A model generated the notes under the pieces. The model was given only the letters and a program-made list of their open reading frames with translations. It ran no database searches and was not told the DNA's origin. Shown in pieces: positions 7,281 to 35,322 of a stretch of 35,832 nt of DNA (position 1 is its first letter; every line of letters begins with the position of its first letter). The position numbers and the translations under genes are program-made. Source of the stretch: Gammaproteobacteria bacterium (lineage in GTDB: Bacteria > Pseudomonadota > Gammaproteobacteria > SZUA-229); the NCBI GenBank assembly GCA_003228405.1, contig QIDK01000104.1, positions 1 to 35,832 on the forward strand, written 5' to 3'.

Positions 7281-7359
7281 AATAAAAGTCAAAAGCTATT
7301 TACCGCAAATAAACGCAAATGCACGCAATGTTTTTATTTGTGCACCTGCGGTGCACAAA
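7281..7359. repeat. nested palindrome, class 1 arm (half element A)
   Basis: ACCGCAAATAAACGCAAATGCACGCAA arm followed by perfect hairpin TTTGTGCACC-TGC-GGTGCACAAA (7337-7359); right arm absent. Confidence 0.7.
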
Positions 7360-7461
7360 CCAGAATTATCTGGTTCCCACGGTCCCCGTGGGAATCCATA
7401 CCCTATTATATTATGCAGCCATATGCATTCCCACGCAGGAGCGAGGGAACGAGTTACAAAC

Positions 7462-8151
7462 CTAGTCTACAGACGTAGATTCAGATGTTGTTTCCTTTAA
7501 TGGTTTAACTATTGCATCAAATTTTGATGGCATCACATATAAAATCACTTCTTTATTTTTTTCACTCAGCGCAATATCCACACCCAGCTCTGGATATAGC
7601 CAATGAACCGCATCACTTTCTACATCTGCCCGTTTTTCTGCCGGCTGACCAAAACGGTTTACCAGCAGCTCGGCATCCAGATTAACCTTAGGCAAATACG
7701 TTATTGAGGCAATGGGCGAGCGTTTAACTTTAACAACATCTTCATCAGTCAGGGTCACTTTACGCGTGCCACTGCCCAGAGTGGCAATACGCAAACCGCG
7801 GTTATACATTGCTTCGATTTCTTTATCTGATATATCAATGGCCATCACCATTTTAGATTTAAGGCCGGCAATTTTCACTTCACTAAAAAAAGCTTCGATA
7901 ACAGCTTTTGACTGTTTGGGCACAAACAGGGATATTTCAGGTATTTCCTTAAATAACTGTTGCGCATCACCAAGCGTAGACTGGCCAATCACTAAATGAA
8001 AAACGCGAGTATAGCCAGAATCAAGCTGTTCTATCTGCCAGGGGAAACCCGCGTGTTCGGTTTCGACCTGTTTAAATGAGGATAAATAAATGCCTGCTGC
8101 AAGTGCCAGTATGGTGAACCCCAGTACGCTTAAAAAAACATGTTTACGCAT
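7462..8151 (-). CDS. hypothetical membrane-anchored/periplasmic protein
   Basis: N-terminal hydrophobic MRKHVFLSVLGFTILALAAGIYL; start moved to 8151, adjacent to the stop of the upstream gene. Confidence 0.7.
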   Translation of the reverse strand: MRKHVFLSVLGFTILALAAGIYLSSFKQVETEHAGFPWQIEQLDSGYTRVFHLVIGQSTLGDAQQLFKEIPEISLFVPKQSKAVIEAFFSEVKIAGLKSKMVMAIDISDKEIEAMYNRGLRIATLGSGTRKVTLTDEDVVKVKRSPIASITYLPKVNLDAELLVNRFGQPAEKRADVESDAVHWLYPELGVDIALSEKNKEVILYVMPSKFDAIVKPLKETTSESTSVD

Positions 8152-8152
8152 A

Positions 8153-8656
8153 TTAATTTTCTTCGACCGGGGGCAGTGCATTTTCAGGAAAACGTTCACT
8201 TACCCAGTTTGGTAACATGGCCGTTTTTGCCATATTCAGAGATTCAGATTCGAATATGATTAAGCCCAGTACCGTTACCATGGTGGGTAAAAAAGCAGCG
8301 CCGCCAAATGCCCAGTGCTGTGGTTTCATATCGCCACCGGAGAGCAGATAAATAATGCCGAATATTGCTCCCATAATAGCCAGCATCAATAGAAAAAACC
8401 GGCTACGCCGTGCTGCAATCTGCCAGTGCCCACTGACATACCAGCTGGCCTTTTTTTTAGCTCGTTGTGCGCCCCAGAATATATAGATTAAGCTGGCAAC
8501 TGAAAAAACGGGGATAAAGACAACAAAATGCGTCAATGAGCTTGCGCTCATAATCGCAACAAACACCAGTATATGGTTGAAAATTAAATTCGTTAAAAAC
8601 ACCTCATGGGGAACACGGGCTTTTTTTAAGTCTTCGGGGGGTACATCATATTTCAT
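8153..8656 (-). CDS. hypothetical multi-pass membrane protein
   Basis: Several hydrophobic segments; 1 bp from the next gene, operon-like. Confidence 0.7.
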   Translation of the reverse strand: MKYDVPPEDLKKARVPHEVFLTNLIFNHILVFVAIMSASSLTHFVVFIPVFSVASLIYIFWGAQRAKKKASWYVSGHWQIAARRSRFFLLMLAIMGAIFGIIYLLSGGDMKPQHWAFGGAAFLPTMVTVLGLIIFESESLNMAKTAMLPNWVSERFPENALPPVEEN

Positions 8657-8753
8657 GAAATGGGGTTCTACAGGCTTTATTCGGCGCAGATTATAGCATT
8701 TTATAAGGACATTGTTTTGTTGTTGGTGTAGCGGAAATTTTTGCAGCTGAACC

Positions 8754-8790
8754 TAATCCCCCTCAATCCCCCTTTTGCCAAGGGGGAGGC
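8754..8790. repeat. G/C-run hairpin repeat (AATCCCCCTCAATCCCCC...GGGGGAGG)
   Basis: CCCCCTTTTGCCAAGGGGG hairpin preceded by AATCCCCCTCAAT; related to 28127-28252. Confidence 0.6.
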
Positions 8791-8962
8791 TTAAGGCGAG
8801 TGCATGTAACGTATATAGCGCTGTAGATGGGTGGTGAGTTTACGAACCCCGACATCTGTCAGCACTGTTGGGCTTCGTGCCTCAGTGCCAACCTACGAAA
8901 AACCAGTTATTGTGGCTATCCTGACTTAATTAAGTGCCATTAGGCTCTGCCCCCAATCTCTA

Positions 8963-9733
8963 CTAACCACAGAATAACCGCAGATAGTTCTGCTTGCTCA
9001 ATTCTGCAATCTGCTCCAGCGAACCGCCCCGCACTTCTGCCAGACACTCGGCAACATGCCCTACCCAGCCGGGGTGATTCTGCTTGCCGCGGTGGGGCAC
9101 AGGTGCCAGATAGGGTGAATCGGTTTCAATTAAAAAGCGATCATCCGGCACCTGCCGGGCGACGTCTCGTAACTCTTGCGCATTGCGAAAAGTAACGATA
9201 CCGGAAAATGAGATATACATACCCATATCCAGTGCCTGACGCGCCATATCCCAGCTTTCTGTAAAACAGTGCATCACGCCACCACAGTTTTCTACATCAC
9301 CTTCTCCCAGAATATCTAATGTATCCTGCTGGGCATCGCGAGTGTGAATAATCACCGGTTTATGCAGCTCATTGGCCGCCTGCAAATGCACTCTGAATGC
9401 CGCCATCTGCTGCTCGCGGGTTTCTTTTGTATAATAATAATCCAGCCCGGTTTCACCTATGGCGACCACTTTTGCATCCGCACCCAACTTTATTAAATTC
9501 TGTAAATCAATGGCTTCATCTTTTATATCCCCCGGGTGCACCCCCACGGAGATATCAACATAATCCAGCTCGTCTACCAGTGCTTTCATTGCCGGGTAAT
9601 CCTGCAGAGTTATAGCCACACATAGCAGGCGTTCAACCTTACCCTGCTGGATGGTTTGCATAAGCTGGCTGAAGTTATTATCGAATTTTTTTAGATCGAT
9701 GCGATCGAGGTGACAGTGGGAGTCTATGAACAT
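8963..9733 (-). CDS. tatD: TatD family metal-dependent hydrolase
   Basis: MFIDSHCHLDRID, IGETGLDYYY, HTRDA, GVMHCFTES, IETDSPYLAP. Confidence 0.95.
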   Translation of the reverse strand: MFIDSHCHLDRIDLKKFDNNFSQLMQTIQQGKVERLLCVAITLQDYPAMKALVDELDYVDISVGVHPGDIKDEAIDLQNLIKLGADAKVVAIGETGLDYYYTKETREQQMAAFRVHLQAANELHKPVIIHTRDAQQDTLDILGEGDVENCGGVMHCFTESWDMARQALDMGMYISFSGIVTFRNAQELRDVARQVPDDRFLIETDSPYLAPVPHRGKQNHPGWVGHVAECLAEVRGGSLEQIAELSKQNYLRLFCG

Positions 9734-9735
9734 AA

Positions 9736-9828
9736 AAGAAGTCTTAAGTCGTAAGTCTTAAGTCATAAGTCTCAAAATACGCGCCTGCGGCGCACCGCTT
9801 TGATTTATGACTTATGACTTACGACTTT
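9736..9828. repeat. nested palindrome, class 3 arms (element H)
   Basis: TTAAGTCGTAAGTCTTAAGTCATAAGTC ... GATTTATGACTTATGACTTACGACTT around GCGCCTGCGGCGC (9781-9793). Confidence 0.85.
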
Positions 9829-9830
9829 GT

Positions 9831-10184
9831 TTACATAGTGTGAGTAGTCCGGTCGGATTTCAGTGCACCCGCCAGATATGTTTCAATTTTGGTTCTGGTC
9901 TGGCCATTATCCTGGGGCCCGAACTGCACACCGATACCCGCCGCTTTATTTCCCTGGGCTCCAGCCGGGGTAATCCAGACTATTTTTCCCGCCACGGGTA
10001 AGCGTTCTTTATCATCCATCAGGGTTAGCAGCATAAACACCTCTTCCCCCAGTCCATAGGATTTATTGGTAGGAATAAATAGCCCGCCATTATTCACAAA
10101 TGGCATGTAGGCTGCATAGAGTGCCGCCTTATCCTTGATAGTTAATGAGAGTATGCCCTGTCTTGGGGCGCCGCCTGCTGCCAT
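9831..10184 (-). CDS. pilZ: PilZ domain protein
   Basis: MAAGGAPRQGILSLTIKDKAALYAAYMPFVNNGGLFIPT; located between holB and tatD as in other gammaproteobacteria. Confidence 0.9.
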   Translation of the reverse strand: MAAGGAPRQGILSLTIKDKAALYAAYMPFVNNGGLFIPTNKSYGLGEEVFMLLTLMDDKERLPVAGKIVWITPAGAQGNKAAGIGVQFGPQDNGQTRTKIETYLAGALKSDRTTHTM

Positions 10185-10187
10185 ATT

Positions 10188-11159
10188 TTAAACCCGTTTG
10201 AGTACCTTGTACCATGATAATAGCAAATCTTCCCACAACAGTTGAGTATTCAATGGAATTGATTGCAATTGTCTGTTTTTAGTTAGCTGATCCAGATATT
10301 CATAAAGCCCGGCTAAACTGGAGCGGGGCACCAGCTGGTTTAATTCTATCTGCTGGGCTGCATGCACCAGAATTGCTGCATTACCACACAGGTGTAGCTT
10401 TATCAGATCCTGCACCCAGTCCTGCAACCAGTTCAGCAAATAGCTTAAGGGCAATTTATGCAGTTGCTCAGCCTGTTCTACCACGGACTGATTTTTAGCC
10501 ACACTGATCAGGGCAGATAGCAGTTGTTTATGATGCGCCAGCAAATCTGACTGCTGCAGCTCCATCGCCAGTAATGGCGCACCATGTGCCAGCCTGAGCA
10601 GCTCGCTGGCCTGCTCAATATCCTGAGCCTGTAACCAGCTAGTGGCCTGTTGTGCATCGGGCACTGTAAAATTAATCGCCTGGCAACGGGAGCGTACGGT
10701 AATCGGTAATTTCTGTGGGCTGGAGCTTACCAGCATCAGAACGGCATCACTGGTGGGCTCTTCCAGGGTTTTTAGCAGGCTATTCGCAGCATTAATGTTC
10801 ATATCATGTGCATCAACAATAATGGCCACCTTATAGCCCCCATACTGACTGGTCAGGTGCAATTTTGCCGAAAGCTGGCGCACATCATCCACCTTTATTA
10901 CCTTGCCTCGCTCTTCTGCCTGCAGCATAAATAAATCAGGGTGAGTTTGTGCCGCGATGAGCTGGCATGCGCCACATTGCCCACAGGCATGGCCCTGATC
11001 ATCAGACGTCTGGCAAAGCATGCTATGTGCCAGTTGCCGTGCAAAATCCAGTTTACCCTGCCCCTCAGCCCCTGCCATTAATATGGCGTGTGGCATCCTG
11101 CCCAGCCGTAGCTGCTGCTGTACGTTATGCCATTGCAATTGTTGCCAGGGGTAGGTCAT
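10188..11159 (-). CDS. holB: DNA polymerase III subunit delta'
   Basis: HAILMAGAEGQGKLDFARQLA, Cys cluster CGQCGACQLIAAQTHPD, NSLLKTLEEP. Confidence 0.94.
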   Translation of the reverse strand: MTYPWQQLQWHNVQQQLRLGRMPHAILMAGAEGQGKLDFARQLAHSMLCQTSDDQGHACGQCGACQLIAAQTHPDLFMLQAEERGKVIKVDDVRQLSAKLHLTSQYGGYKVAIIVDAHDMNINAANSLLKTLEEPTSDAVLMLVSSSPQKLPITVRSRCQAINFTVPDAQQATSWLQAQDIEQASELLRLAHGAPLLAMELQQSDLLAHHKQLLSALISVAKNQSVVEQAEQLHKLPLSYLLNWLQDWVQDLIKLHLCGNAAILVHAAQQIELNQLVPRSSLAGLYEYLDQLTKNRQLQSIPLNTQLLWEDLLLSWYKVLKRV

Positions 11160-11412
11160 GGGTAACTCATATGGTGTGTAGATATAGCGTCTTATCTAAA
11201 AAAACACAGACATGTCATGTGCATTTAAAGCAGCGCCGCATATTGATTGATCATGATTTTACTATTTACATCATAAAATCACCATAAGTAATCGTATTTA
11301 AATGATTTTCTCCATTAATCTGAATTAATTTATGGTAATTTAAAAACATCAGCTCACTAACTATAATTTAGTTGTGGAACTGCCCCCCCCCAAACAACTG
11401 GAGACTACAGTC

Positions 11413-11754
11413 ATGATGTTAAACGTAGCCGGTAAAAATATAGAGACAAATGAACAGGGTTTTCTCGCCAACCCTGGCGAATGGTGTGAAGAATTCACCG
11501 AAACCATCGCCAAAAATGACAGTGTCAATTTATATGATGATCATTGGGAACTGATTTTTTATTTTAGAGATTATTATGAAGAAAATCAGATCTGCCCCAC
11601 CATGCATAAGGTAATACGTGAACTGGGCAAAAAAAATGAGCATTTTCATAATCAGAAAGAATATGAAAAACACATCTATATGCTGTTTCCAACTGACCCT
11701 GCCCATGAGGTATGCAAACTGGCTGGCTTGCCCATGCCTCAACCAGATGATTGA
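11413..11754 (+). CDS. DsrC/TusE-family sulfur-carrier-like protein lacking CysA
   Basis: NEQGFLANPGEWCEEF..., DHWELIFYFRDYYEENQICPTMHKVI, LFPTDPAHEVCKLAGLPMPQPDD; ATG 11413 with GGAG upstream (alternative in-frame GTG at 11374). Confidence 0.88.
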   Translation: MMLNVAGKNIETNEQGFLANPGEWCEEFTETIAKNDSVNLYDDHWELIFYFRDYYEENQICPTMHKVIRELGKKNEHFHNQKEYEKHIYMLFPTDPAHEVCKLAGLPMPQPDD

Positions 11755-11820
11755 GTTATACCTGCAATAGTAAGACAGGAAGGTTCGTTAATGATATAGC
11801 CATTAAAATCAGAAGAAAAA

Positions 11821-11947
11821 AGCATTTTCCCGCAAATGAACGCATATTTTTTTTGTGCGTGCGGCCTGCGCCGCTCGCACTATACCTTTTTAATGCTTTT
11901 GCTCTTATTTGCGTGCCTTTGCGTTCATTTGCGGACAAACTGCTTTT
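11821..11947. repeat. nested palindrome, class 1 arms (element B)
   Basis: AGCATTTTCCCGCAAATGAACGCATA ... TTGCGTTCATTTGCGGACAAACTGCTTTT around GTGCGTGCGGCCTGCGCCGCTCGCAC (11855-11880). Confidence 0.85.
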
Positions 11948-11998
11948 TGCTGTTAGAAAATATTCATGGGGATAACTCAGGCTCTGTCCCCAGGCAAA

Positions 11999-13747
11999 TC
12001 AACTGTGGGATGTTCCAGCATCAACAGGAAAACTAAAGCTGAAACTTGCACCTGTACCCAGGCCTTCACTTTCAGCAGTAATTTCACCGCCCAGTGTTTT
12101 TGCCACCAGTGCACAATTATGCAGACCAAAACCATGACCATTCTTACGCTTTGTAAAGCCATATTCAAACAGGCGTGGTAAATCTTCCTTCGCTATACCA
12201 ATCCCATTATCCTTCACTTCAATAACCACCATGTTAGCTGATTTAGATAACACAATCGTTAAAACTTTATTTTCAATATCTGCATCTAGCAGGGCATGTT
12301 TCGAATTACTGACCAGATTGATTATGATCTGTAGCAAATTATGCTTATCCAGTTGCATTATCGGCAATTTCTGAAATTTCCTGACAACTTGAATTTTATA
12401 AAAATCACTTTTATCCATATTAATTTTTAAAGCATCTTCAATTAAATCGGCTAGTTGCACCGGTTCCGTCAAGCTGAAATTACCTGCATGGGATTGCTGC
12501 ATTTGTATTATATTTTTTATATGCGTTATATTACTGTCAAGATTATCCAGTTCAGCAATAAAAAAATCATGCTCGTGCTGCAACCTGTCAGATAATAGTT
12601 TTAGAAATTCAGGAACTTGCATGCCTTTGTTATTAGTAGTCATAAACTCACCAAGCTGACCCTTATTTTCATTCAGCATTGTAACCACTTTTTTTAAATT
12701 TACGGCACTAGATTTTAGCAATTGCCCCCTTATTATTGATGAAGATATATTTACGCTATTTAATACATTACCCACATTATGTAATACTCCGCTGGCGACT
12801 TCTGCCATGCCGGCACTGCGTGAAACATCAGCAATAATTTTATTCAGCTGTTCCAGTTTTTTAGTGCGGTCTCCCACTCTTTGCTCTAATGTTTCACTTA
12901 AATCTTTTAAGCGAGATTCGATACGTACTCTTTCTGAAATTTCATTTTCAAGGTCATTGTTGGTGAGTGACATTTCATTCGCAAAGATCTTTGCTTCATC
13001 TGCTAACTTCTCCGCATTTTCCTTTTGCGAATTCAATTCATTATCATGTTGCTGAATTTGCTCAAGCATCGTATTAAATGAATTTACCAGTAGCCCTATT
13101 TCATCATTACTCTGTTTACCCACACGAGCACTATAATCTTTATTATGGGTAACTTTCTGCATTGCATATGCCAGATTTTCAACTGGCTTTAAACAACTGC
13201 GCAATATAAAAAAGGTGGCAATAGATAAGATGAGCAGAATCGCAAAAAGCAAGACGACCACTTTAATGATAATTTCTTCGGAATATTCGGATTTTGTATC
13301 CATATAATAAGCCAGATGGGCATTAGCCATATGCTTATTAGCCAGATAGACTGGATAAATAACTTCTCGCACGGGACGATTTAAATAGAAAACATCTTTG
13401 ACAACAGGCGCGACTATTTCACCCACAGAATCGACCTTATGTGCCACTAAAGCAGGGTCTGTATGTGAAATAATAACCCCATTACCCTTGCTCAGATAGG
13501 CATAGGCAAAATTATCAATTGCAGTGGTTCCCCTGAGCCCGCCTTCTAATAACTCATAGTCATTAGTAGCCAGAAAATCCAGGCTACTTTCAGCCAGGCC
13601 TTTCGCCATCATATGCGCCTGATGCAACCTGACCTTTTCATAGACATTTTTAGCTTCATTTATAAGGCCATATGCTATAAAACTGGTGCTTACTAAAAAC
13701 AGCAGTGTCAGGCTAAGCAGCAGGCGATAAAAAATTCCAGGATTCAT
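11999..13747 (-). CDS. sensor histidine kinase (TM-Cache-like-TM-HAMP-coiled coil-HATPase)
   Basis: HAMP segment, GVLHNVGNVLNSVNISSSII, QIIINLVSNSKHALLDA, DNGIGIAKEDLPRLFEYGFTKRKNGHGFGLHNCAL. Confidence 0.9.
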   Translation of the reverse strand: MNPGIFYRLLLSLTLLFLVSTSFIAYGLINEAKNVYEKVRLHQAHMMAKGLAESSLDFLATNDYELLEGGLRGTTAIDNFAYAYLSKGNGVIISHTDPALVAHKVDSVGEIVAPVVKDVFYLNRPVREVIYPVYLANKHMANAHLAYYMDTKSEYSEEIIIKVVVLLFAILLILSIATFFILRSCLKPVENLAYAMQKVTHNKDYSARVGKQSNDEIGLLVNSFNTMLEQIQQHDNELNSQKENAEKLADEAKIFANEMSLTNNDLENEISERVRIESRLKDLSETLEQRVGDRTKKLEQLNKIIADVSRSAGMAEVASGVLHNVGNVLNSVNISSSIIRGQLLKSSAVNLKKVVTMLNENKGQLGEFMTTNNKGMQVPEFLKLLSDRLQHEHDFFIAELDNLDSNITHIKNIIQMQQSHAGNFSLTEPVQLADLIEDALKINMDKSDFYKIQVVRKFQKLPIMQLDKHNLLQIIINLVSNSKHALLDADIENKVLTIVLSKSANMVVIEVKDNGIGIAKEDLPRLFEYGFTKRKNGHGFGLHNCALVAKTLGGEITAESEGLGTGASFSFSFPVDAGTSHS

Positions 13748-13860
13748 AAAAAGTAGTTTATATCATTCCTGTATTTAGCATATCTTTAGTTGCAGGGAAT
13801 ATACAATTTTTAAAATTTGAGCTTAACTATCTGCAATGATTCATATTAAGCAGAAGCTGC

Positions 13861-14043
13861 TTATAAGCGGCCTGTTATTAACAGATTCTTTGTCATCTGT
13901 TTGATTTTATCATCATATTTTACAAATGACTTAATTTTCATACTTTGCATTTTATCCAGTAATTCCGCCCCTTCAGGGTTTATCGGCACGCTTAATAATT
14001 CTTCACGAAACCGCTCGATAAAATATTCTGGAAAGTTTTTCAA
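13861..14043 (-). CDS. small hypothetical ORF (60 aa)
   Basis: Open frame only; adjoins a TIR-element end, could be a remnant. Confidence 0.3.
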   Translation of the reverse strand: MKNFPEYFIERFREELLSVPINPEGAELLDKMQSMKIKSFVKYDDKIKQMTKNLLITGRL

Positions 14044-14061
14044 CGTAGTAGCGGGACGTTT

Positions 14062-14102
14062 TTGACAATAAGATCACCATCATGACTTAATCAGTGGTTC
14101 CC
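14062..14102. mobile_element. end of the TIR element related to 4016-4084
   Basis: Reverse complement GGGAACCACTGATTAAGTCATGATGGTGATCTTATTGTCAA matches 4019-4059 at 37/41 without gaps. Confidence 0.7.
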
Positions 14103-14881
14103 TAACTAAATATAACGCTCTTCAATAAAATATAACTGGCCACCAGCAACAAGAAAAGCGCGAAACCTTTTTTGAGTAAATCGGCCGGTAGACGATGCCC
14201 CAGCTGACTGCCTATAACGCTACCTACAACGGCAATGGCCGTAAATATTGCCATCATTTGATAATCAATAGCCACTGAGCCCGCATACCCGGCAAAGCCC
14301 GCAAATGATTTTAGAGAAACTACTGTTAACGATGTACCCACAGCTCTTTTCATGGACAGGCCTGATAACAGCACCAGCGCCGGAACAATCAGAAACCCCC
14401 CGCCCACACCCACAATACCCGTTAATATGCCCACAGCAATGCCGTGAATCGCGATATGACGGTACTGAAGGTCTTCACAATGCCCATCAGGGCAGTTTGT
14501 GATTGTGTCTTCCACGGGTTTATGTTGCAGCGATGGCCTTAACATTTTCCAGGCCGCCATATACATCACCAGTGCAAATAAACCGAGCTGGATCACGACA
14601 GGCGTAATCACGCCAAGCAGTGCTCCAACATAGGTGCCTGCCATTCCGAACAGGCCAAAAATTGCCGTAATTTTGAAATTTACATGACCCTGGCGCCAAT
14701 GTTGTAGAGCGGTAATTGCAGCGGTAACGGCCACTATTCCCAGGCTCATGGCAATAGCGGCTTTGGGTTCAACATTCAGTAAATAGAGTAAGGCAGGCAT
14801 GGTGATAATTGAGCCACCACTACCAAATACGCCTAGCAGTATACCGGTAGCCAGGCCCGCGATAACAATCGAAATGGACAT
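14102..14881 (-). CDS. TauE/SafE family sulfite exporter / anion permease
   Basis: Multi-pass; GLATGILLGVFGSGGSIITMPALLYLL and GILTGIVGVGGGFLIVPALVLL repeats; AAAGGAG before ATG 14881. Confidence 0.92.
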   Translation of the reverse strand: MSISIVIAGLATGILLGVFGSGGSIITMPALLYLLNVEPKAAIAMSLGIVAVTAAITALQHWRQGHVNFKITAIFGLFGMAGTYVGALLGVITPVVIQLGLFALVMYMAAWKMLRPSLQHKPVEDTITNCPDGHCEDLQYRHIAIHGIAVGILTGIVGVGGGFLIVPALVLLSGLSMKRAVGTSLTVVSLKSFAGFAGYAGSVAIDYQMMAIFTAIAVVGSVIGSQLGHRLPADLLKKGFALFLLLVASYILLKSVIFS

Positions 14882-15106
14882 ATCCATCTCCTTTAATGGG
14901 GTGTTAGATGCTTGAACAGGCGGACAGGCATCTATATTCAATTAATCTATTGAATACTAGAATAACATCGAATTCCCAAAGGTCAAGAAAATATCTGTGG
15001 TGAGGCAACAGAGTGAAAACTTTTACCCGAATTAACGATAAAGCAATGATTTTATGGTGAATATAGTAACCGGGTAGCGAGAGAGCCTGTACAAAAGCAA
15101 CAGTTT

Positions 15107-15150
15107 TCTCTGTGTACTCTGCGTCTCTGTGGCGGGCTTTTGCTTTAAAT
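15107..15150. repeat. lone class 2 arm
   Basis: CTCTGTGTACTCTGCGTCTCTGTGGCGGGCTTTTGCTTT, compare right arms at 25976-26008 and 35277-35320. Confidence 0.6.
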
Positions 15151-15277
15151 CAGCCTTTATCAGGCCCCATTCCAGCCGGGTAAAACAAGCTGTATGATTA
15201 TCGATATTTCGACATTTACTCAAGCTAACGACTCTGCCTGGCTAAAAATGAATCTGGCTGGCTAAATATGAATCGGG

Positions 15278-16905: not shown

Positions 16906-16967
16906 TATTTTTAAAGACTCACGCTTGCACTAAGCATCCCACTACTTGAAATAAAATCAAAAACACT

Positions 16968-17061: not shown

Positions 17062-17099
17062 ACATTCTGCTATATTTTAATATTTTTTAATAGTTCAAA

Positions 17100-21993: not shown

Positions 21994-22105
21994 TCTAAAT
22001 CCTTAACCCCGATACAAGAGTTCGGGATGACTGTTTAAATTATCTTTATCTGTTATAAAGAATCTGATATTTTCATGCTTTCGTAATCAAAATCAAAAAG
22101 ATAAA

Positions 22106-22230
22106 GGCATTTTCACCGAAAATAAATGCTAATTTTTATTGTTTACACACCTGTGGCGCACTCGCCTTATTAAGGCTTTTGCTTTTATTTGCATGTTTTA
22201 GCGTTCATTTGCGGACAAAATGCTTTTTTG
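22106..22230. repeat. nested palindrome, class 1 arms (degenerate element C)
   Basis: AGATAAAGGCATTTTCACCGAAAATAAATGC ... TTTAGCGTTCATTTGCGGACAAAATGCTTTTTT. Confidence 0.65.
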
Positions 22231-23213: not shown

Positions 23214-23340
23214 GAAGCAAAAGATTTACTGCAAATGAACGCAAATATTTTTCAGGTTTATGCGCCTGCGGCGCATAAATCTGAATTAAAACTTTTATTT
23301 GCGTGTTTTTCGTTCATTTGTGTGCGGTAAACCGATTTTG
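23214..23340. repeat. nested palindrome, class 1 arms (element D)
   Basis: ACTGCAAATGAACGCAAAT ... ATTTGCGTGTTTTTCGTTCATTTG around CAGGTTTATGCGCC-TGC-GGCGCATAAATCTG (23253-23283). Confidence 0.85.
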
Positions 23341-25842: not shown

Positions 25843-25891
25843 GCTTTATTTGTCTCTGTCTTTCAGCTGAATACTTAACAGCTTTTTATTT

Positions 25892-26008
25892 TTGAACCGC
25901 AGAGGGCGCAGAGGTACGCAGAGTTTTCTATTTATTTTTTGCGCCTACGGCGCTGTAATAAATAACATGTTTTTCCTCTGCGTACCTCCGCGCTCTCTGC
26001 GGTTCAAG
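25892..26008. repeat. nested palindrome, class 2 arms (element F)
   Basis: TTGAACCGCAGAGGGCGCAGAGGTACGCAGAG ... CTCTGCGTACCTCCGCGCTCTCTGCGGTTCAAG around GCGCCTACGGCGC (25941-25953). Confidence 0.9.
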
Positions 26009-26036
26009 CTTTTTCTTTTAGCCTTTTAAACACACA

Positions 26037-26066
26037 AAATGCCCGGCTAAAAAACCAGGCATTTCA
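26037..26066 (-). terminator. possible terminator downstream of dnaK
   Basis: ATGCCTGG-TTTTTTAG-CCGGGCAT stem on the minus strand; only a weak T-run follows. Confidence 0.45.
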
Positions 26067-26093
26067 TTGCAGGCAAATACCTGAGTAAATGTC

Positions 26094-28040: not shown

Positions 28041-28067
28041 AAATATAAATTTTTAACTTATCCCCTA

Positions 28068-28093
28068 GATAGGGGCGGGTTTTTATTTTTCAA
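28068..28093 (-). promoter_or_regulatory. possible sigma32-type promoter upstream of dnaK
   Basis: Minus strand TTGAAA-N12-CCCCTATC, partial match to CTTGAAA-N11-16-CCCCATNT. Confidence 0.4.
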
Positions 28094-28126
28094 TGGTTTA
28101 AGTGTGTTTACTTAGCTTTTATTAAC

Positions 28127-28252
28127 AATCTCCCCCCTGGAAAAAGGGGGTTGAGGGGGATTTATTCCAGATTTAAATCTCCCCCAACCCCTCTTTTTCA
28201 AAGAGGGGAGCAATATTCTCTCCCGGCCCTTCTTTTTCAAAGAGGGGGATGG
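28127..28252. repeat. cluster of G/C-run hairpins between grpE and dnaK
   Basis: TCTCCCCCCTGGAAAAAGGGGG, CCCCTCTTTTTCAAAGAGGGG, CCCTTCTTTTTCAAAGAGGGGG; also GGGGGTTGAGGGGGATTT / AAATCTCCCCCAACCCC. Confidence 0.8.
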
Positions 28253-28253
28253 T

Positions 28254-28862
28254 TTACTCGGCGGCTTTTGACACCATCACCATCGCCGGGCGTACCAGAC
28301 GGTCATTCAATAGATAACCTTTCTGCATTACCGCTATCACCGTATTCGGCTCATGCTCAGCACTGGGCTGCATAGACATGGCCTGGTGGTGGTCTGCATT
28401 AAACTTCTCACCTTCCGGGTTAAGCTCAACCACATTAAATTTTTCAAACACTCCGTTGAGCATGCTCAGCGTCATTTCACTACCTTCACGTAGTTTTTCG
28501 ACACTGGCATTTTCCTGGCCGGCCACTTCTACGCCCATTTCCAGGCTGTCTTTCACCGCCAGCATTTCGGCAATAAATTTCTCTAATGCATATTTATGCG
28601 CGTTTTCCAGGTCTTTCTGCGTTCGCCGGCGGATATTATCCATCTCGGCCTTGGTGCGCAGTAGCTGATCCCAGTTTTCAATGGCTTTCTTTTCAGCCGA
28701 ATCCAGCTTCTCCATCAGCTCTTCTGCTGACAGGGCCTCACCGTGGCTTTCATTAAGCACTTCAAGCGCTTCTTCATCAGCCGTTTCTTCTTCAGGTGAG
28801 ACAACTTCACCTTCTACAGCTGCATCTGGTTGATTCTTATCGAGGATTTCCTCGTTTGGCAT
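28254..28862 (-). CDS. grpE: nucleotide exchange factor GrpE
   Basis: RTKAEMDNIRRRTQKDLENAHKYALEKF...LNPEGEKFNADHHQAMSM...VMQKGYLLNDRLVRPAMVMVSK. Confidence 0.96.
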   Translation of the reverse strand: MPNEEILDKNQPDAAVEGEVVSPEEETADEEALEVLNESHGEALSAEELMEKLDSAEKKAIENWDQLLRTKAEMDNIRRRTQKDLENAHKYALEKFIAEMLAVKDSLEMGVEVAGQENASVEKLREGSEMTLSMLNGVFEKFNVVELNPEGEKFNADHHQAMSMQPSAEHEPNTVIAVMQKGYLLNDRLVRPAMVMVSKAAE

Positions 28863-28896
28863 CTCTAGATCTCCATCATTATTAGGTCTTTAGGGA

Positions 28897-28924
28897 ATAT
28901 GGGGTTATTCATTGGAAATTCAAG
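28897..28924 (-). promoter_or_regulatory. grpE: sigma32 (heat-shock) promoter upstream of grpE
   Basis: Minus strand CTTGAA-TTTCCAATGAATAA(14)-CCCCATAT, near-consensus for RpoH. Confidence 0.75.
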
Positions 28925-28930
28925 GGTCTT

Positions 28931-29070
28931 TAAAAGCAAAAGATAAAGGCATGTTGTCCGCAAATGAACGCAAATTAAATCAAAAACTTTAATTGGCTGT
29001 TGTAATGCGTCGCAGACGCATGAACCGAAAATTTGCGTTTATTTGCGTTCATTTGCGGACAAAACTGCTT
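28931..29070. repeat. nested palindrome, class 1 arms (element E)
   Basis: Perfect 20-bp arms GTCCGCAAATGAACGCAAAT (28956-28975) / ATTTGCGTTCATTTGCGGAC (29041-29060) around ATGCGTC-GCA-GACGCAT (29005-29021). Confidence 0.92.
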
Positions 29071-30120
29071 TTAAGATTTTTCAGCACCCAGCGCCAGGCT
29101 CAAAAACCGTGCGGTAATATCCACCGCCGTGATCACCTTGCTATATTCCATTCGCGTAGGCCCGATCACCCCCAGCACCCCCAGAATATTATCTCTGCTT
29201 CCATAGGGCACAGAGACTACACTGAACTCATCCAGCCCTTCTATGCCAGCTTCAGAGCCAATAAATACCTGCATATCTTCTGCCTGAATACAGCGATCTA
29301 ACAACCCCAGCATATCCCGTTTACTCTGAAACACCTGAAACAGCTGTTGCAGCTGGTTGGCATTATCAGCCTCATTAAAGCGAATTAAATTAGCCTGACC
29401 CTGTAACCGGTAGCGCTCATTAGCTTCATCGGGCTTCAGCGCCTGATCTGCCAGGCTAACCGCCGCCGCCATTAATTTATCGACCTGTGTGCGGGCATTC
29501 TGCATTTCCTTTACCAGCAATGCGCGAATCTGAAAAATATCCTTGCCCATAAAATGCTGGTTCAGGTAATTGGATATTTTAACCAGTTCATCCTGGGTGT
29601 AGTCTTTTTCCACATGCACAATTCGGTTTTGCACATCACGTTCATTGACCACCAGAATGGCAAGTATTTTTTTATCCGGCAGGGGCAAAAATTCAATACG
29701 GCGTAAGTTAAGCTGGCCACTTTTAGGCAGGGTGACAACCCCTGCCATCTGGGTAATATCAGACAACAGGCTATTCGCCATGTTAATCAGGGTGTCTTTA
29801 TCCTGATCTGCATTGAGTTGCTGCTGTAATTTTTCCTTAATCGCGACTTCTATGGGGCTGAATTCGAGCATGGAATCTACATACATGCGAAAGCCCATAT
29901 TGGTGGGTACACGACCGGCTGAGGTATGGGGTGCGGAAACCAGCCCCATGGAATCTAAATTAGCCATTACATTACGAATGGTGGCAGTAGAGATATTTAA
30001 ACCGGCGGTTTCTGCCAGGGTTTTTGAGCCCACCGGCGTTCCCTCTTCAACATAGCAGTTGATCAGGGTTTTTAATAAATATTGAGAGCGCTCGTTAAGC
30101 GTGGCTGATTTTTTTGGCAT
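29071..30120 (-). CDS. hrcA: heat-inducible transcriptional repressor HrcA
   Basis: LNERSQYLLKTLINCYVEEGTPVGSKTLAE...STATIRNVMANLDSMGLVSAPHTSAGRVPTNMGFRMYVD. Confidence 0.96.
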   Translation of the reverse strand: MPKKSATLNERSQYLLKTLINCYVEEGTPVGSKTLAETAGLNISTATIRNVMANLDSMGLVSAPHTSAGRVPTNMGFRMYVDSMLEFSPIEVAIKEKLQQQLNADQDKDTLINMANSLLSDITQMAGVVTLPKSGQLNLRRIEFLPLPDKKILAILVVNERDVQNRIVHVEKDYTQDELVKISNYLNQHFMGKDIFQIRALLVKEMQNARTQVDKLMAAAVSLADQALKPDEANERYRLQGQANLIRFNEADNANQLQQLFQVFQSKRDMLGLLDRCIQAEDMQVFIGSEAGIEGLDEFSVVSVPYGSRDNILGVLGVIGPTRMEYSKVITAVDITARFLSLALGAEKS

Positions 30121-30137
30121 TGATATTGTTTATAGTA

Positions 30138-30207
30138 GGGTAGATCACAACGAAGCAGATCCACCGATAGCCGATAAAATAATGGATCCGCTTCGCCTGA
30201 TCCACCC
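30138..30207. repeat. REP-like inverted repeat between lolD and hrcA
   Basis: GGGTAGATCACAACGAAGCAGATCCA ... TGGATCCGCTTCGCCTGATCCACCC. Confidence 0.75.
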
Positions 30208-30212
30208 CGCGT

Positions 30213-30947
30213 TTATATTGCTTTCAACTGTCCATTTTCAATGGCATAAATGGTATCCATCTTTTTAGCAAACTCCATATCATGGGTCACCACAATCAGA
30301 CTGGTGCCAAATTCTTTATTTAAACGTAGCATCACCTGCACCACCTGCTCTGCGGTCGCCTTATCCAGGTTACCGGTAGGCTCATCGGCACAAATGCATC
30401 TCGGCTCGTTAATTACCGCACGGGCAATCGCCGCACGCTGACGTTCACCGCCGGAAAGCTCTGAGGGCTTATGCAGCAAACGCTGTGTCATACCCACTTT
30501 ATCAAGTAACATCGCTGCTTTATTTAAGGCCTGAGATGGGCTGATGCCACGCACTAATGCAGGCATGGCGACATTTTCCTGTGCGCTGAACTCAGCTAAC
30601 AGATGATGAAACTGGTACACAAACCCCAGGTAATTATTACGTACCCGGCAGCGTTCTTTCTCTGACATGCGCACCAGGTCTTTTTCATCAACAAACACCT
30701 GGCCTGAAGTAGGCGAATCCAGCCCGCCTAATAAATGCAACAAAGTGCTTTTACCGGAACCGGAGGCACCCACTATGGCTATTTTTTCACCCGCTTTTAC
30801 CGTCAGATTAATATTTTTTAAAACTTCCAGTTGATTGCCACCGCCTTCACTAAAAGATTTACAGATATCCACGGCTTCCATCACAATCGGGTCTCCGGTG
30901 CCAGCAGGGAATATCTGTGAGTCTGAAAAACTGTCCAGATAATTCAT
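30213..30947 (-). CDS. lolD: lipoprotein-releasing ABC transporter ATP-binding protein
   Basis: Walker A GASGSGKST, LSGGERQRAAIARA, CADEPTGNLD; overlaps LolC/E gene end. Confidence 0.95.
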   Translation of the reverse strand: MNYLDSFSDSQIFPAGTGDPIVMEAVDICKSFSEGGGNQLEVLKNINLTVKAGEKIAIVGASGSGKSTLLHLLGGLDSPTSGQVFVDEKDLVRMSEKERCRVRNNYLGFVYQFHHLLAEFSAQENVAMPALVRGISPSQALNKAAMLLDKVGMTQRLLHKPSELSGGERQRAAIARAVINEPRCICADEPTGNLDKATAEQVVQVMLRLNKEFGTSLIVVTHDMEFAKKMDTIYAIENGQLKAI

Positions 30948-32194
30948 TACTCGTACCTCAGAGCATCAGCCGGTTGAATTCGGGCTGCACGCCAGGCCGG
31001 GTAAATGGTGGCCAGCACAGACAGAGAAAATGCAGATATGGTATAGATTAATACATCGGAGGCTCGCAGGTCTGATTTAATATCGGTGATGTAATACACA
31101 TCTGCGGGCAGAAATTTAGTTTGAAACAGCATTTCAAAGAAGGCCACTATCTCCCCCACATTAACCGCAACCGGCACACCGATGGCGACTCCTAATAATG
31201 TACCCACTAAGCCAATGACCACACCCTGCACTATAAATACCCACATTAAGCTATTCGGTGTCATGCCGATGGTACGCAAAATAGCAATATCTGCCTGCTT
31301 GTCATTTACCGTCATTACCAGAGTCGAAATAATATTAAAGGCGGCCACGGCAACTATGAGCAGCAATATAATAAACATCACCACTTTTTCAGTTTTTAAG
31401 GCCTTAAATAAATTACTGTGCATTTTAGTCCAGTCGCGCACCCAGTAATCTTCACCAATCGTGTTTTCCAGCTCGCGGGTGACTTTATAGGCATTAAACA
31501 TATCATCCAGCTTAAGCCGAACACCCTCTACTTTTTCACCCAGACTAAATAATTTCTGTGCATCTTTAATATGTATAAAGGCCATAGAACGATCATACTG
31601 GTGCATACCCACTTCAAATACACCGACGACCGTAAAGCGTCTTAAGCGAGGCATTACACCCACTGGAGTCACATTTGCCTGGGGTGTAATCAGGGTGATT
31701 TTTTCACCCTCAAATACCCCCATGGCGTTGGCCAGTTCACGGCCTAAAACGATACCATAACGGCCGGCTTTTAAATCGGACAGTTTGCCGGAGACCATTT
31801 TCTGATCGATTTCAGAAACACCTGGCTCCTGCTCGGGCAGCACACCGCGAATAATGGCTCCGCTCACCCGGTTGCGATTACTTAACATGGCTTCATTCTG
31901 GGTAAAGGGTGCGGACGCAATAACATTGGGATGCAGGGCTACTTTTGCCTGAATCGATTGCCAGTCACTGAGTTTGCCATCCTGACCTGACACGGTAGCA
32001 TGGGCAGTCATACCTAATGTACGATCTCGTAATTCCTTGCCAAAGCCATTCATTACAGACAGCACCACTATTAGAGCCGCCACTCCCAGGGCTATGCCCA
32101 GCATGGAAATCAGCGCAATAAATGACACAAAACCATTTCGGCGTTTGGCACGAGTGTATCTCAGGCCGATATAGAGCTCTTTCGGTCTAAACAT
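30947..32194 (-). CDS. lipoprotein-releasing ABC transporter permease (LolC/E)
   Basis: YIGLRYTRAKRRNGFVSFIALISMLGIALGVAALIVVLSVMNGF, RTIGMTPNSLMWVFIVQG, YPAWRAARIQPADALRYE. Confidence 0.94.
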   Translation of the reverse strand: MFRPKELYIGLRYTRAKRRNGFVSFIALISMLGIALGVAALIVVLSVMNGFGKELRDRTLGMTAHATVSGQDGKLSDWQSIQAKVALHPNVIASAPFTQNEAMLSNRNRVSGAIIRGVLPEQEPGVSEIDQKMVSGKLSDLKAGRYGIVLGRELANAMGVFEGEKITLITPQANVTPVGVMPRLRRFTVVGVFEVGMHQYDRSMAFIHIKDAQKLFSLGEKVEGVRLKLDDMFNAYKVTRELENTIGEDYWVRDWTKMHSNLFKALKTEKVVMFIILLLIVAVAAFNIISTLVMTVNDKQADIAILRTIGMTPNSLMWVFIVQGVVIGLVGTLLGVAIGVPVAVNVGEIVAFFEMLFQTKFLPADVYYITDIKSDLRASDVLIYTISAFSLSVLATIYPAWRAARIQPADALRYE

Positions 32195-32212
32195 ATCTGA
32201 AGGGGTTCTTCT

Positions 32213-32233
32213 TTGTTAATTGTTAATTGTTAA
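32213..32233. repeat. 7-bp tandem repeat (TTGTTAA x3)
   Basis: TTGTTAATTGTTAATTGTTAATTTTAA in the sfsA to lolC/E gap. Confidence 0.8.
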
Positions 32234-32235
32234 TT

Positions 32236-32946
32236 TTAATCCTGAAAGGCAAACGCTATAGCCCTGTCAATCGACATCCCATCTGGCTCAATGCTCGCCC
32301 TGTACGCAAGTATCTCTACCCCTTCCTTAACGGCTTCCCTTAAAAGTCGTCCATACTCGGCATCAATCAAATCCGCCGGCGCGACAAGGTTAACATCAGT
32401 GCGCATGATTATAAACAGCAATACGGCTCGATAACCGGATTTAACCTGTAGAATTAGCTCTCGCAGATGTTTCTGCCCACGTTTGCTAACCGCATCGGGG
32501 AATAGAGCCACGCCATCCTGCAGGCTTAAGGTAACGTGTTTTACTTCAACATAGGCCAGTTGCTCTGCATAACTCAATACAAAATCTACCCGGCTTTTCT
32601 CATTTCCATAGGGAACTTCACTACGACAGGTATCAAAGCCTGCAAGTTCCGTGATCTGATTTTGCAACAGAGCCTCATGCGCCAGCTTATTCGTCAGGCC
32701 CGTATTAATACAGGCCAGCACATCCGCTTTCACTTCTACCAGCTGCCAGCTATGGGGATATTTACGCAGGGGATTATCCGACACGCTTAACCAGACATTG
32801 GCTCCTGCGGGCGCACAGCCCGTCATGGCGCCTGTATTAGCGCAATGGGCGGTAATTTCTGTGCCATCATCTAAAACAATATCGGCAAGAAAGCGTTTGT
32901 AACGTTTTATGAGTTTGCCTTTGATTAGAGGCGGGCTGAAATTCAT
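32236..32946 (-). CDS. sfsA: DNA/RNA nuclease SfsA
   Basis: LIKRYKRFLADIVLDDGTEITAHCANTGAMTGC, RVDFVLSY, VEVKHVTL, FPDAVSKRGQKHLREL. Confidence 0.95.
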   Translation of the reverse strand: MNFSPPLIKGKLIKRYKRFLADIVLDDGTEITAHCANTGAMTGCAPAGANVWLSVSDNPLRKYPHSWQLVEVKADVLACINTGLTNKLAHEALLQNQITELAGFDTCRSEVPYGNEKSRVDFVLSYAEQLAYVEVKHVTLSLQDGVALFPDAVSKRGQKHLRELILQVKSGYRAVLLFIIMRTDVNLVAPADLIDAEYGRLLREAVKEGVEILAYRASIEPDGMSIDRAIAFAFQD

Positions 32947-33050
32947 TTATTTCTCAAAAATATTTATTATCCTGCCATTTTACAGAATATATCTGCACAT
33001 ATTCCGCAAACTTTTGAATGTGTTTTTTAGCGTGGGTGAGATACAGATAT

Positions 33051-33911
33051 TTAGTAAACCTGAGACAGATCAAGCGCTTTAATACAGGCTGCAGTATGTT
33101 GACTAACTGTTTGGTTATACGCTTTTTGTAGCGAAGCTAAAACCACATTATCCGCTTCACCCGTAAGCTCATTCATAAATACTTTTTTAGCCTCGGTTGC
33201 CAGTACCAGAACATTATCGTACAAACCATGACAGTACCCGGCCAAATAACCCTTTCCATAAAAAACATCATTTTCATCCGCCGTAATTTCAAGCCCTTCA
33301 ACTGACATGTGTTTAAGTACAGACAACCAGGAATCTATTAGCGGCCGCCATTTATCACTTTTAACTGAAGTTGTGCCCAGGTTAAATACCGGCAGCTCAG
33401 TTCGTTTATGGCGACGGTAATTATAGGAATGACTGTCATAAACAATGCACTGCCCAAAATCTTCAAGCAGCGCCTCAACTACGGCTGAAACAATACGGTA
33501 AAATTGCGCATGTTTTCCTTTACTGGTTGCAATAGCCTGTTTACTTAACGGGTTTTCCCATACATCTTTTCCCCAGGCAGTTGTATATACACAATTATCT
33601 GTATTGCGATTCAGGTCATATTCGTAGCGTGAATCATGGCCGATTAATGTAATCGCCTGCTGCTCAATAAAACTGCCTGTATAGGGGTCTTCCTCATAAT
33701 ATCGCTCTGCCTGAGTTAGCAGGCAATTATCCTTTAACTCATCCCGCAGATTACTACCATTATGAATTGCAGCACACATGGCGGGCAGGTATTTTTCAAT
33801 TTTCAGCGTAAAACCCCCGCTTTCTGTAGTCGTAATAAAGGTTTCACGCTGGTTAATTTTTTTAATAATTTCCTGCTCAGACAGTATCATTATGGCTAAC
33901 TCCTGTAGCAC
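33051..33911 (-). CDS. N-formylglutamate amidohydrolase-like protein
   Basis: AAIHNGSNLRDEL, DPYTGSF, YDLNR, VYDSHSYNYRR. Confidence 0.7.
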   Translation of the reverse strand: MLQELAIMILSEQEIIKKINQRETFITTTESGGFTLKIEKYLPAMCAAIHNGSNLRDELKDNCLLTQAERYYEEDPYTGSFIEQQAITLIGHDSRYEYDLNRNTDNCVYTTAWGKDVWENPLSKQAIATSKGKHAQFYRIVSAVVEALLEDFGQCIVYDSHSYNYRRHKRTELPVFNLGTTSVKSDKWRPLIDSWLSVLKHMSVEGLEITADENDVFYGKGYLAGYCHGLYDNVLVLATEAKKVFMNELTGEADNVVLASLQKAYNQTVSQHTAACIKALDLSQVY

Positions 33912-34032
33912 AGATAGCGTTACACACTAATTATCTAAGAATCAATGCTCTTATATTGAATTTACGACTTCTACAGCATATTATATGCAGTTAATCTGCC
34001 CACCTCTATAAAAATTAGTAAAAATAATTAAT

Positions 34033-35130
34033 ATGCTGTTTCCATCTCTACCCATACGCATTTTCGCCCTGACTATCTTTATCTCATGTTTCACTTTTAC
34101 AGAAGCAGATAATTCCAACTGGACACCGAATGCAGTTGAATTTGACTGGGTGCAACTCACCTCAGGGGAATGGCTGAAAGGTAAAATAAAATCCATGTAC
34201 AATGAGGTGCTTGAGTTCGATAGTGACAAACTCAAGCTGCAATCCATAAAACTGAACGATGTGAAATATCTGCAAAGCTTTAAGTCCTGCCATATTAGTA
34301 TTGAAAATATTGGCCCTGTCCATGGAAAACTGAATATTGTAAATGAAATAATTACCGTTACCGAGGGAGACAATATTAGAAAATTTAAACGCACTGAACT
34401 CATTTCATTTACTCCCGCCGGAAGCCGTGAAATTGACCTATGGGCTATCAAATTATCCATGGGCTTTGATATTAAAAAAGGCAATACCGATCAGATCGAT
34501 TTTAATACCCAGTTTTCTGCCAAACGCCGCACTGCAGAATCACGATTTACAACTAATTATACCGGCAACTTTTCACAGACCGATGCAGTGTCAGGCAGCC
34601 CTGAAGAAACCATAAATAATCAGCGCATAAATTTCTCTTTAGATAAATATGTAACCCGATATTTTTTCTATACCCCTATTTTTGGTGAATATTTCGAAGA
34701 CAAATTTCAGAATATTGAGCAACGAACTACATTAGGTGTGGGTATAGGTTATACCCTGATAGATACAGATGACATGGACTGGAATATATCTGGCGGCCCC
34801 TCCTACCTTTCAACAACCTATGTCTCAGTTCTACCGGGTGAAAACATTAAGGCAGACTCAGCCTCACTTGCTCTAAACACATATTTTGAAGCAGAAATAA
34901 ATAACAGAGTAGATTTTATATTTAAATACAATATTCAGCTTTCAAGCAAGGAGTCTGGAGGCTACTCACACGATATGACCGCTACATTTGAAACTGAATT
35001 AACCGGCGACCTTGATTTTGATGTTTCTTTTATCTGGCGTCGAATCAATAACGCTGCTGTTGATGACCAGGGTATAGCCCCTGAAGCCGATGACCTGAAT
35101 TTTATATTAGGCATTAGCTATACATATTAA
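34033..35130 (+). CDS. DUF481 family putative outer-membrane protein
   Basis: Signal peptide, WVQLTSGEWLKGKIKSMYNEVLEFDSDKL, C-terminal beta-strand pattern ending LNFILGISYTY. Confidence 0.82.
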   Translation: MLFPSLPIRIFALTIFISCFTFTEADNSNWTPNAVEFDWVQLTSGEWLKGKIKSMYNEVLEFDSDKLKLQSIKLNDVKYLQSFKSCHISIENIGPVHGKLNIVNEIITVTEGDNIRKFKRTELISFTPAGSREIDLWAIKLSMGFDIKKGNTDQIDFNTQFSAKRRTAESRFTTNYTGNFSQTDAVSGSPEETINNQRINFSLDKYVTRYFFYTPIFGEYFEDKFQNIEQRTTLGVGIGYTLIDTDDMDWNISGGPSYLSTTYVSVLPGENIKADSASLALNTYFEAEINNRVDFIFKYNIQLSSKESGGYSHDMTATFETELTGDLDFDVSFIWRRINNAAVDDQGIAPEADDLNFILGISYTY

Positions 35131-35204
35131 CGCTACTATTTAACCAGTGAAACTGATTCATAATATGCATTTCCACGTAGGAGAGATGGGGGAAGTTAAA
35201 AAAA

Positions 35205-35322
35205 AGATTGAACCACAGAGGACACAGAGTTTTTTTGATTGCTGCGCCGTAGGCACAGTAACCAATATTCGCTTTTCTCCGTGTCCTCTGTCTCCTCCGT
35301 GGTAAATAGCTTTTGCTTTTAA
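35205..35322. repeat. nested palindrome, class 2 arms (element G)
   Basis: TTGAACCACAGAGGACACAGAG ... CTCCGTGTCCTCTGTCTCCTCCGTGGTAAATAGCTTTTGCTTTT around CTGCGCC-GTA-GGCACAG (35242-35258). Confidence 0.85.

Follow-up and report, generated by a model that had tools for sequence, protein, structure and literature searches.

The stretch of DNA analysed here (the window, 35,832 nt of contig QIDK01000104.1 from a gammaproteobacterial genome) contains eight nested palindromes, elements A to H, in which inverted arms of short quasi-tandem units surround a core hairpin. An earlier note on this DNA had described at least seven intergenic elements of one nested architecture; eight were verified at the positions that it listed, far above chance. 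Inverted-repeat clusters, a count that includes repetitive extragenic palindromes (REPs) and other repeat families, numbered 82 in 755 kb of real sequence versus 0 in 116 kb of dinucleotide-preserving shuffles. All eight elements show inverted arms of cognate tandem units, with one clear arm in A, and the arms were divided in three classes: class 1 has the 10-bp unit CRCRRATRAA, class 2 has CRCRRAG units of 8-10 bp, and class 3 has 7-bp units. These units match those around genes of two small protein families, GxxExxY (PF13366/TIGR04256) and the four-helix-bundle protein annotated as 23S ribosomal RNA (rRNA) intervening sequence protein (IVP; PF05635). None of the eight window elements contains a cognate open reading frame (ORF) between its arms, and no Rfam family matched in the window.

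Class 1 contains five elements; none of the eight is assigned a strand. Element A (7302-7356) has a left arm, ACCGCAAATAAACGCAAATGCACGCAA, at 7302-7328 and a core hairpin GTGCACC-TGC-GGTGCAC at 7340-7356, while its right arm is gone and a GTTCCCACG-type REP pair (7372-7453) stands in its place; the orthologous gap lacks the element in the related genomes G001, G003 and G004. Element B (11829-11948) shows a left arm at 11829-11844, a hairpin GTGCGTGCGGC-CTGC-GCCGCTCGCAC at 11855-11880, whose loop has 4 nt, and a right arm at 11907-11948. Element C (22097-22229) is composed of a decayed left arm (22097-22141), a broken core (22146-22164) and a right arm (22183-22229); its gap is empty in G001-G004, G006 and G008, and in G005 it holds a class-2 element enclosing a REPIN (a hairpin-forming REP doublet). 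Element D (23225-23331) has its left arm at 23225-23246, its core within TTCAGGTTTATGCGCC-TGC-GGCGCATAAATCTGAA at 23251-23285 and its right arm at 23297-23331. The corresponding gap contains class-1 elements in G002 and G003, a AGTGAAAA-armed element in G005, and none in G001, G004, G006 and G008. Element E (28954-29062) has arms at 28954-28975 and 29031-29062 around the core ATGCGTC-GCA-GACGCAT (29005-29021); copies are found in G002 and G003 and are missing in G001, G004 and G008, where the neighbouring intergenic DNA is partly alignable.

Class 2 contains elements F and G. Element F (25892-26007), in the dnaJ/dnaK gap, has arms at 25892-25923 and 25976-26007 which are 94% complementary, and the core GCGCC-TAC-GGCGC at 25941-25953. 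The same gap contains a class-2 element in G003 and G004, a class-1 element in G002 (decayed in G001), a GTTATCAGTTTTCAG-armed (AGTTATCAGTT-armed) element in G005, and none in G006 and G008. Element G (35208-35306) shows arms at 35208-35229 and 35277-35306, the core CTGCGCC-GTA-GGCACAG at 35242-35258 and an interior whose family is shared with locus L024. The only class-3 element, H (9739-9827), has arms of AAGTCNT 7-bp units at 9739-9771 and 9802-9827 and the core GCGCC-TGC-GGCGC at 9781-9793; orthologous copies are present in G003 and G004, and a decayed one in G001.

In the family to which the host genome belongs, inverted quasi-tandem arms are found on both sides of 15 of 15 full-length GxxExxY genes; at random positions of the same family loci, the arm score is 12 or lower. 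In the own genome, an intact GxxExxY gene (C212:1078-1416) lies between class-1 arms with TTGTCCGC ends, as in the window elements, and ORF-bearing members were found in contigs C212, C173 and C146. Most of the intact four-helix-bundle genes of the family have heptamer arms on either side (AAGTCGT and AGTGAAA are examples), and the arm family of element H also flanks the four-helix-bundle genes of loci L052, L062, L053, L058 and L059. With a strict filter, no other ORF was found between arms 200-1500 bp apart in sampled contigs of the own genome and genus.

The association extends well beyond this family. When 85,000 species genomes were scanned with a subfamily-2 GxxExxY alignment, which limits the survey to that subfamily, 80 loci were obtained, and inverted ACCRCRRAG-type arms lie directly beside the ORF in 57 of them versus 1 of 143 control stretches. 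These loci span at least 14 phyla, among them Acidobacteriota, Planctomycetota, Chloroflexota, Verrucomicrobiota, Nitrospinota, Cyanobacteria, Armatimonadota, Omnitrophota, Cloacimonadota, Bacteroidota/Ignavibacteria and Pseudomonadota, and an archaeal locus with arms was found in Methanosarcinales (score 14). Four-helix-bundle genes sampled over the phylum showed 7-bp-unit arms in 18/30 cases versus 1/58 controls. Nostoc plasmids have GGGAACA units and Riemerella has AAGGTTC-like units. Neither protein matched in 50,697 phage records, and no defence-system families were found. In a Fusobacteria plasmid (L107), a GxxExxY gene (ORF 986-1360) shows on either side a direct, not inverted, repeat of about 27 bp, AGATTTAATCCGTGTACCTAT[C/T]AAAA.

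Arm unit and protein subfamily vary together. GxxExxY genes of the '..FEVS..ENALC' type (subfamily 1) have CRCRRATRAA arms in 6/7 cases in the family, and those of the '..IEVH..EECL' type (subfamily 2) have CRCRRAG arms in 8/8. CRCRRAT units flank 6/7 subfamily-1 versus 0/8 subfamily-2 genes (p=0.0014; several genes share an orthologous site, so not all are independent). Around distant subfamily-1 genes (44-56% identity), the arms are of the CRCRGATRAA type and have a 10-bp period, with 7/14 above threshold. Since the arm unit follows the GxxExxY subfamily, a single design underlies classes 1 and 2, which are its variants, and the 7-bp units of class 3 represent a second one. The three arm classes had been considered unrelated in the earlier note, but the unit CRCRRA[T/G]R is common to classes 1 and 2, which pair with two subfamilies of one protein. 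Likewise, the motif GCTTTTGCTTTT, described there as a flank shared by classes 1 and 2, is not confined to the flank: class-1 elements have it between the core and the right arm.

Copy number also tracks the cognate gene. Class-1 unit counts were higher in genomes with a subfamily-1 gene (p=0.004 in the family and 0.0002 across all 30 related genomes), as were class-2 unit counts with a subfamily-2 gene (p=0.006 and 0.0001, respectively), while comparisons of each class with the non-cognate subfamily were not significant within the family (p=0.16). G001 and G004, which are 99% complete and have no GxxExxY gene, show 1 and 0 class-1 hits; G000, G002 and G003 show 154, 69 and 75. One class-1 query gave about 100 local hits in the own genome, sharing ends and interiors. 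Because the same arms flank cognate genes, the subfamily matches the unit and copies are more numerous where the gene is present, the window palindromes are probably ORF-less, non-autonomous copies of arm-bounded elements whose full members carry a GxxExxY or four-helix-bundle ORF. They resemble miniature inverted-repeat transposable elements (MITEs) in their short AT-rich interiors, inverted ends, many related copies without a transposase and a copy number that follows a candidate master gene, and the ends that the ORF-less copies match are those of the GxxExxY and four-helix-bundle elements. Unlike MITEs, they end in arrays of quasi-tandem units, no target duplication was observed, and their presumed master, a Cas4-like nuclease or a helix bundle, is not a known transposase.

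The earlier note had suggested mobility and exchange and had named empty sites in close strains as a check, and the genus gaps agree with mobility or exchange: those orthologous to C, D and E are empty in some species and filled in others, and the dnaJ/dnaK gap carries class-2, class-1 or AGTTATCAGTT-armed elements depending on the species. That one gap accepts different arms is at most suggestive of a hot spot, and the G005 region is itself dense in elements. The pattern is clearest in Nostoc conjugative plasmids, in the gap after a TraM-domain gene. This gap measures 52 bp in p057_K and p057_A, where it is empty. In pNe_5 and pC052_D it contains a four-helix-bundle element whose arms are of the GGGAACA type, in pNsp_c an ORF-less element whose arms are related to the GGGAACA set, and in p057_H another ORF-less element, with TTCAAAA arms. 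The gap flanks of pNe_5 and pNsp_c are 97% identical, and identity is about 88% to p057_K/p057_A and about 77% to p057_H. Insertion is directly past the upstream stop codon and some intergenic DNA is seemingly replaced. On these sequence comparisons, the elements are probably mobile. Intact GxxExxY genes also occupy the carA/carB gap in several genera of the family (L032, L036-L041), and GxxExxY genes recur across genera in the trpG/trpD gap (L042, L043, L045, L046, L049), where they are broken in two congeners; this recurrence may reflect either long retention or repeated insertion at one site.

The core hairpin shows a C(GNA)G loop on one strand in six of the eight window elements (A, D, E, F, G and H), as previously described. 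The GCGCCTNCGGCGC core occurs 16 times in the 3.09-Mb host genome versus 0 for the reversed control, and all 16 copies lie inside arms, 11 of class 1, two of class 2 and three of class 3. The possibility of cores at background frequency away from such arms was thus checked, and the GCGCCTNCGGCGC core is not background because every copy sits between arms. In the sampled own genome, triloop hairpins with stems of at least 6 bp were of the C(GNA)G/C(TNC)G type in 7/11 within arms versus 0/46 elsewhere (Fisher p=1.2e-6, on copies of one family that are hence non-independent). The stems of these hairpins vary (ATGCGTC/GACGCAT, ATACGCC/GGCGTAT, GTTCTCC/GGAGAAC and ATGTGCC/GGCACAT), and about half of the class-1 copies have no such hairpin, in a census of sampled stretches picked partly for holding class-1 hits. 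In four class-1 copies (L092 11701, L093 17018, L097 7693 and L099 6707), the core hairpin is split by an insert of about 55 bp, GTGCGCC[..TGTACAGG..TCTCAG]GGCGCAC, apparently another small repeat.

A modular family with one core common to three arm classes is supported in this genome, but the 'fixed core, exchanged arms' of the earlier note is not supported as a general rule. The same arms and ends (AAAG..GTCCGCAAATG / CATTTGCGGAC..CTTT) recur in two other genera, where the DNA between them is a REPIN, unrelated sequence or a few bases and lacks a C(GNA)G core, and elsewhere a GxxExxY or four-helix-bundle gene occupies the place of the core. The core is local to the window genus, and it is by their arms that the elements are defined. 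Copies in this genus share an interior, which amplification of one local master would produce. That three arm classes have a common core is the least explained part of the picture; possibly an earlier insertion was reused, or the classes converged on a stable mini-hairpin because a common factor requires it.

GxxExxY has no solved-structure relative by sequence. Its predicted structure (predicted local distance difference test 94.6, predicted template modelling score 0.88) has as best PDB matches the Cas4 protein SSO0001 (4ic1; Foldseek probability 1.00, E 3e-3) and lambda exonuclease (probability 0.98, E 1.2e-2). With conserved D, ExK and QxxxY positions, the protein models as a Cas4/lambda-exonuclease-like fold (PD-(D/E)XK). 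Solved structures of the four-helix-bundle family are 2rld and 2gsc. In the mechanism that we propose, an element would be defined by its pair of inverted arms, in each of which a few quasi-tandem units of 7-10 bp follow one another, and a full member would have one small ORF between them, GxxExxY for classes 1 and 2 and the four-helix-bundle IVP for class 3. ORF-less members would enclose other DNA, in the window genus a short C(GNA)G hairpin that may act in single-stranded DNA (ssDNA). Copies would enter short gaps of co-transcribed genes, often directly past a stop codon. The arms would most likely act as DNA, as a tandem, iteron-like array bound, or possibly cleaved, by the cognate ORF protein, which would also act in trans on ORF-less copies. 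Cutting and joining may be due to the GxxExxY nuclease and/or to host functions that act on ssDNA or hairpins or in replication repair, without an obvious duplication of the target.

Of the other explanations considered, intervening sequences (IVSs) acting at the RNA level come closest, although we consider them unlikely. The palindromes would fold in polycistronic mRNA like 23S rRNA IVSs, be cut by RNase III and spread as parasitic RNA-encoded sequences. The IVS has been described as a selfish element in which complementary ends enclose an S23p ORF and which RNase III excises from rRNA (PMC4990558). PF05635 (S23p / 23S_rRNA_IVP, TIGR02436) is also the ORF family of the Coxiella and Leptospira IVSs, so that the elements described here share with them the four-helix-bundle family, a small ORF between inverted complementary ends and a patchy distribution. 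Moreover, they lie in co-transcribed gaps with the ORF co-directional with the operon in 42 cases and opposite in 5 (within co-directional gaps), but this is expected for a gene without its own promoter, and some elements are found in convergent gaps. Arm mismatches on the sense strand do not favour G.U over A.C around GxxExxY genes (69:51, p=0.12) and run the opposite way around four-helix-bundle genes (6:18), and the strand of the C(GNA)G loop is not significantly biased (11:5); therefore, there is no sign of selection on an RNA stem, and a role of the arms at the DNA level is favoured from these sequence comparisons. Unlike rRNA IVSs, these elements are located in gaps of protein-coding operons, have arms of tandem 7-bp units and show numerous ORF-less copies. 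Four-helix-bundle loci without heptamer arms were considered as possible rRNA IVSs and rejected, since no Rfam rRNA match was found at the eight loci checked; likewise, neither these loci nor the window gave an Rfam match that would place an insertion in helix 9, 25 or 45 of 23S rRNA.

A quite improbable alternative is that the palindromes are host-selected sites of nucleoid-protein binding or translational control, the GxxExxY and four-helix-bundle genes being regulated neighbours. Two published accounts suggest it. Classes 2 and 3 of the 'global regulator binding sites' of Geobacter metallireducens, with consensus TCTCCGTS[Y] and MTYCTGA, are annotated as pairs on opposite strands at variable distance (PMC2700814), and the TAACTGA heptamers of Beggiatoaceae and cyanobacteria are interpreted, in Beggiatoaceae, as possible post-transcriptional control sites (PMC4679880). 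Their tandem units match CACGGAG and heptamer arms, and the passages concerned treat them as regulatory, without connecting them with an element or with either GxxExxY or four-helix-bundle genes. Against regulation stand presence/absence and arm-class exchange at orthologous gaps, broken and ORF-less copies, and the recurrence of the same arms around the same two genes in unrelated operons of bacteria and archaea (carA/carB, trpG/trpD, murA/hisG and fabD/fabG, names mostly read from flanking sequence).

The movement of REPINs by REP-associated tyrosine transposases (RAYTs, of the Y1 type), suggested by the earlier note, is very improbable. The genome contains four Y1 genes, and the elements share with REPs, bacterial interspersed mosaic elements and REPINs (GTAG-/CGTC-tagged REPs, PMC3733652; REPINs, PMC3116915) an intergenic multicopy palindromic nature and small GC-rich hairpin cores, with REPINs as occasional passengers between arms. 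However, none of the four Y1 genes (0/4) is bracketed by these palindromes, and the one that shows clear flanking repeats has CCCGGATTTCGCT..ATCCGGGCTACG REPs, unrelated to the arms; another Y1 gene has a class-2 palindrome about 300 bp upstream. Furthermore, the arms are long tandem arrays unlike REPs of 20-40 bp, the core is a single 13-35 bp hairpin with no inverted pair of GTAG/CGTC-tagged REPs and is missing in other genera with the same arms, and element abundance follows GxxExxY genes. At L012 (G000:C94), a Y1 transposase gene shows CCCGGATTTCGCTGCGCTGCATCCGGGCTACG repeats on either side, the normal RAYT-REP arrangement.

The least probable explanation is expansion in situ, in which template switching or slippage builds the arms from short seeds with no dedicated element: it would account for the quasi-tandem units and for some arm-to-arm copying, but copies of one genome share ends and interiors and one unit consensus recurs in different phyla together with the same proteins. 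Within a single ORF-bearing element, the two arms are more alike than either is to the arms of other elements (18.8 versus 12.7 of 23, 0/10000 permutations, with a contribution from unit-spacing differences), and L040 and L119 each have an identical non-tandem insert in both long arms, so arm-to-arm copying occurs at times.

Several results weigh against the interpretation of the palindromes as non-autonomous copies of arm-bounded elements. No target-site duplication or exact excision was seen in the Nostoc gap, whose filled sites differ from the empty ones beyond the insert, nor was target duplication seen in the genus gaps, whose intergenic DNA is too diverged. The correlation of class 3 with the four-helix-bundle gene is weak (p=0.11 in the family, 0.011 overall), and G007 shows 91 class-3 hits with no four-helix-bundle gene found. 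Class-1 copies are present in G016 and in the incomplete genomes G018 and G010, with no subfamily-1 gene found in any of the three, and class 2 is present in G000, which has no intact subfamily-2 gene. Most genomes are fragmented assemblies and the copy-number correlations ignore phylogeny. In addition, the two arms of ORF-less class-1 copies of the own genome match no better than chance pairs, so arm-to-arm repair is not seen there, and the Foldseek probability for GxxExxY is high but its E-value modest. Finally, GxxExxY and the four-helix-bundle protein are unrelated, and a common mechanism therefore needs a shared host factor.

The proposed elements join three things so far treated separately: GxxExxY, a widespread small family of unknown function; the four-helix-bundle IVP genes, known mainly from rRNA IVSs; and abundant tandem or palindromic intergenic repeats. 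A role in element mobility is thereby predicted for two protein families annotated in very many genomes, and stem-loops would be added to essential transcripts because copies insert inside operons (carAB, trpGD, dnaJ-dnaK). More tentatively, the GxxExxY and IVP genes may head a class of mobile elements that had gone unrecognised in bacteria and archaea, in which the protein recognises the arms and ORF-less copies move in trans via a host-dependent hairpin or ssDNA intermediate; many 7-10 bp intergenic repeats, including supposed regulator sites, would be their remains. In the open-licence full-text literature, GxxExxY (PF13366/TIGR04256) appears in few papers, none of which, in the portions concerned, deals with mobility or links it to such arms; an earlier description elsewhere is possible.

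Other repeat families were found in the same DNA. A GTAGGAG-tagged REPIN (AGGAGTTAGCTTTAGCTGACGAT...ATCATCAGCTAAAGCTAACTCCT) at window positions 3786-3903 belongs to a separate family, with at least eight more copies in sampled contigs of the own genome (L090, L091, L092, L094, L095, L098 and L100). The GTTCCCACGCxxxGCGTGGGAAC REP pair next to element A is also present near window position 35167 and at L088 11375-11547, where it lies between class-1 arms. An imperfect palindrome, CCAGGGAACCTCTGATCAAGTC, at window positions 4016-4084 and L095 8703-8779, is repeated elsewhere in the genome, and L092 shows three near-identical 76-bp palindromes, GAGACACCCATAC...GTATGGGTGTCTC, within 4 kb (2386-2461, 4377-4452 and 5957-6032). 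A family of palindromes of about 120 bp (GTAACTGCTCAGGTTGCCCCTG...GGGGTAAGCTGAGCAGTTAC), unrelated to the studied arms, is present in G000, G002, G003 and G004, at L103 4792, L104 2000, L106 7632, L072 8167, L073 6286 and L068 3109.

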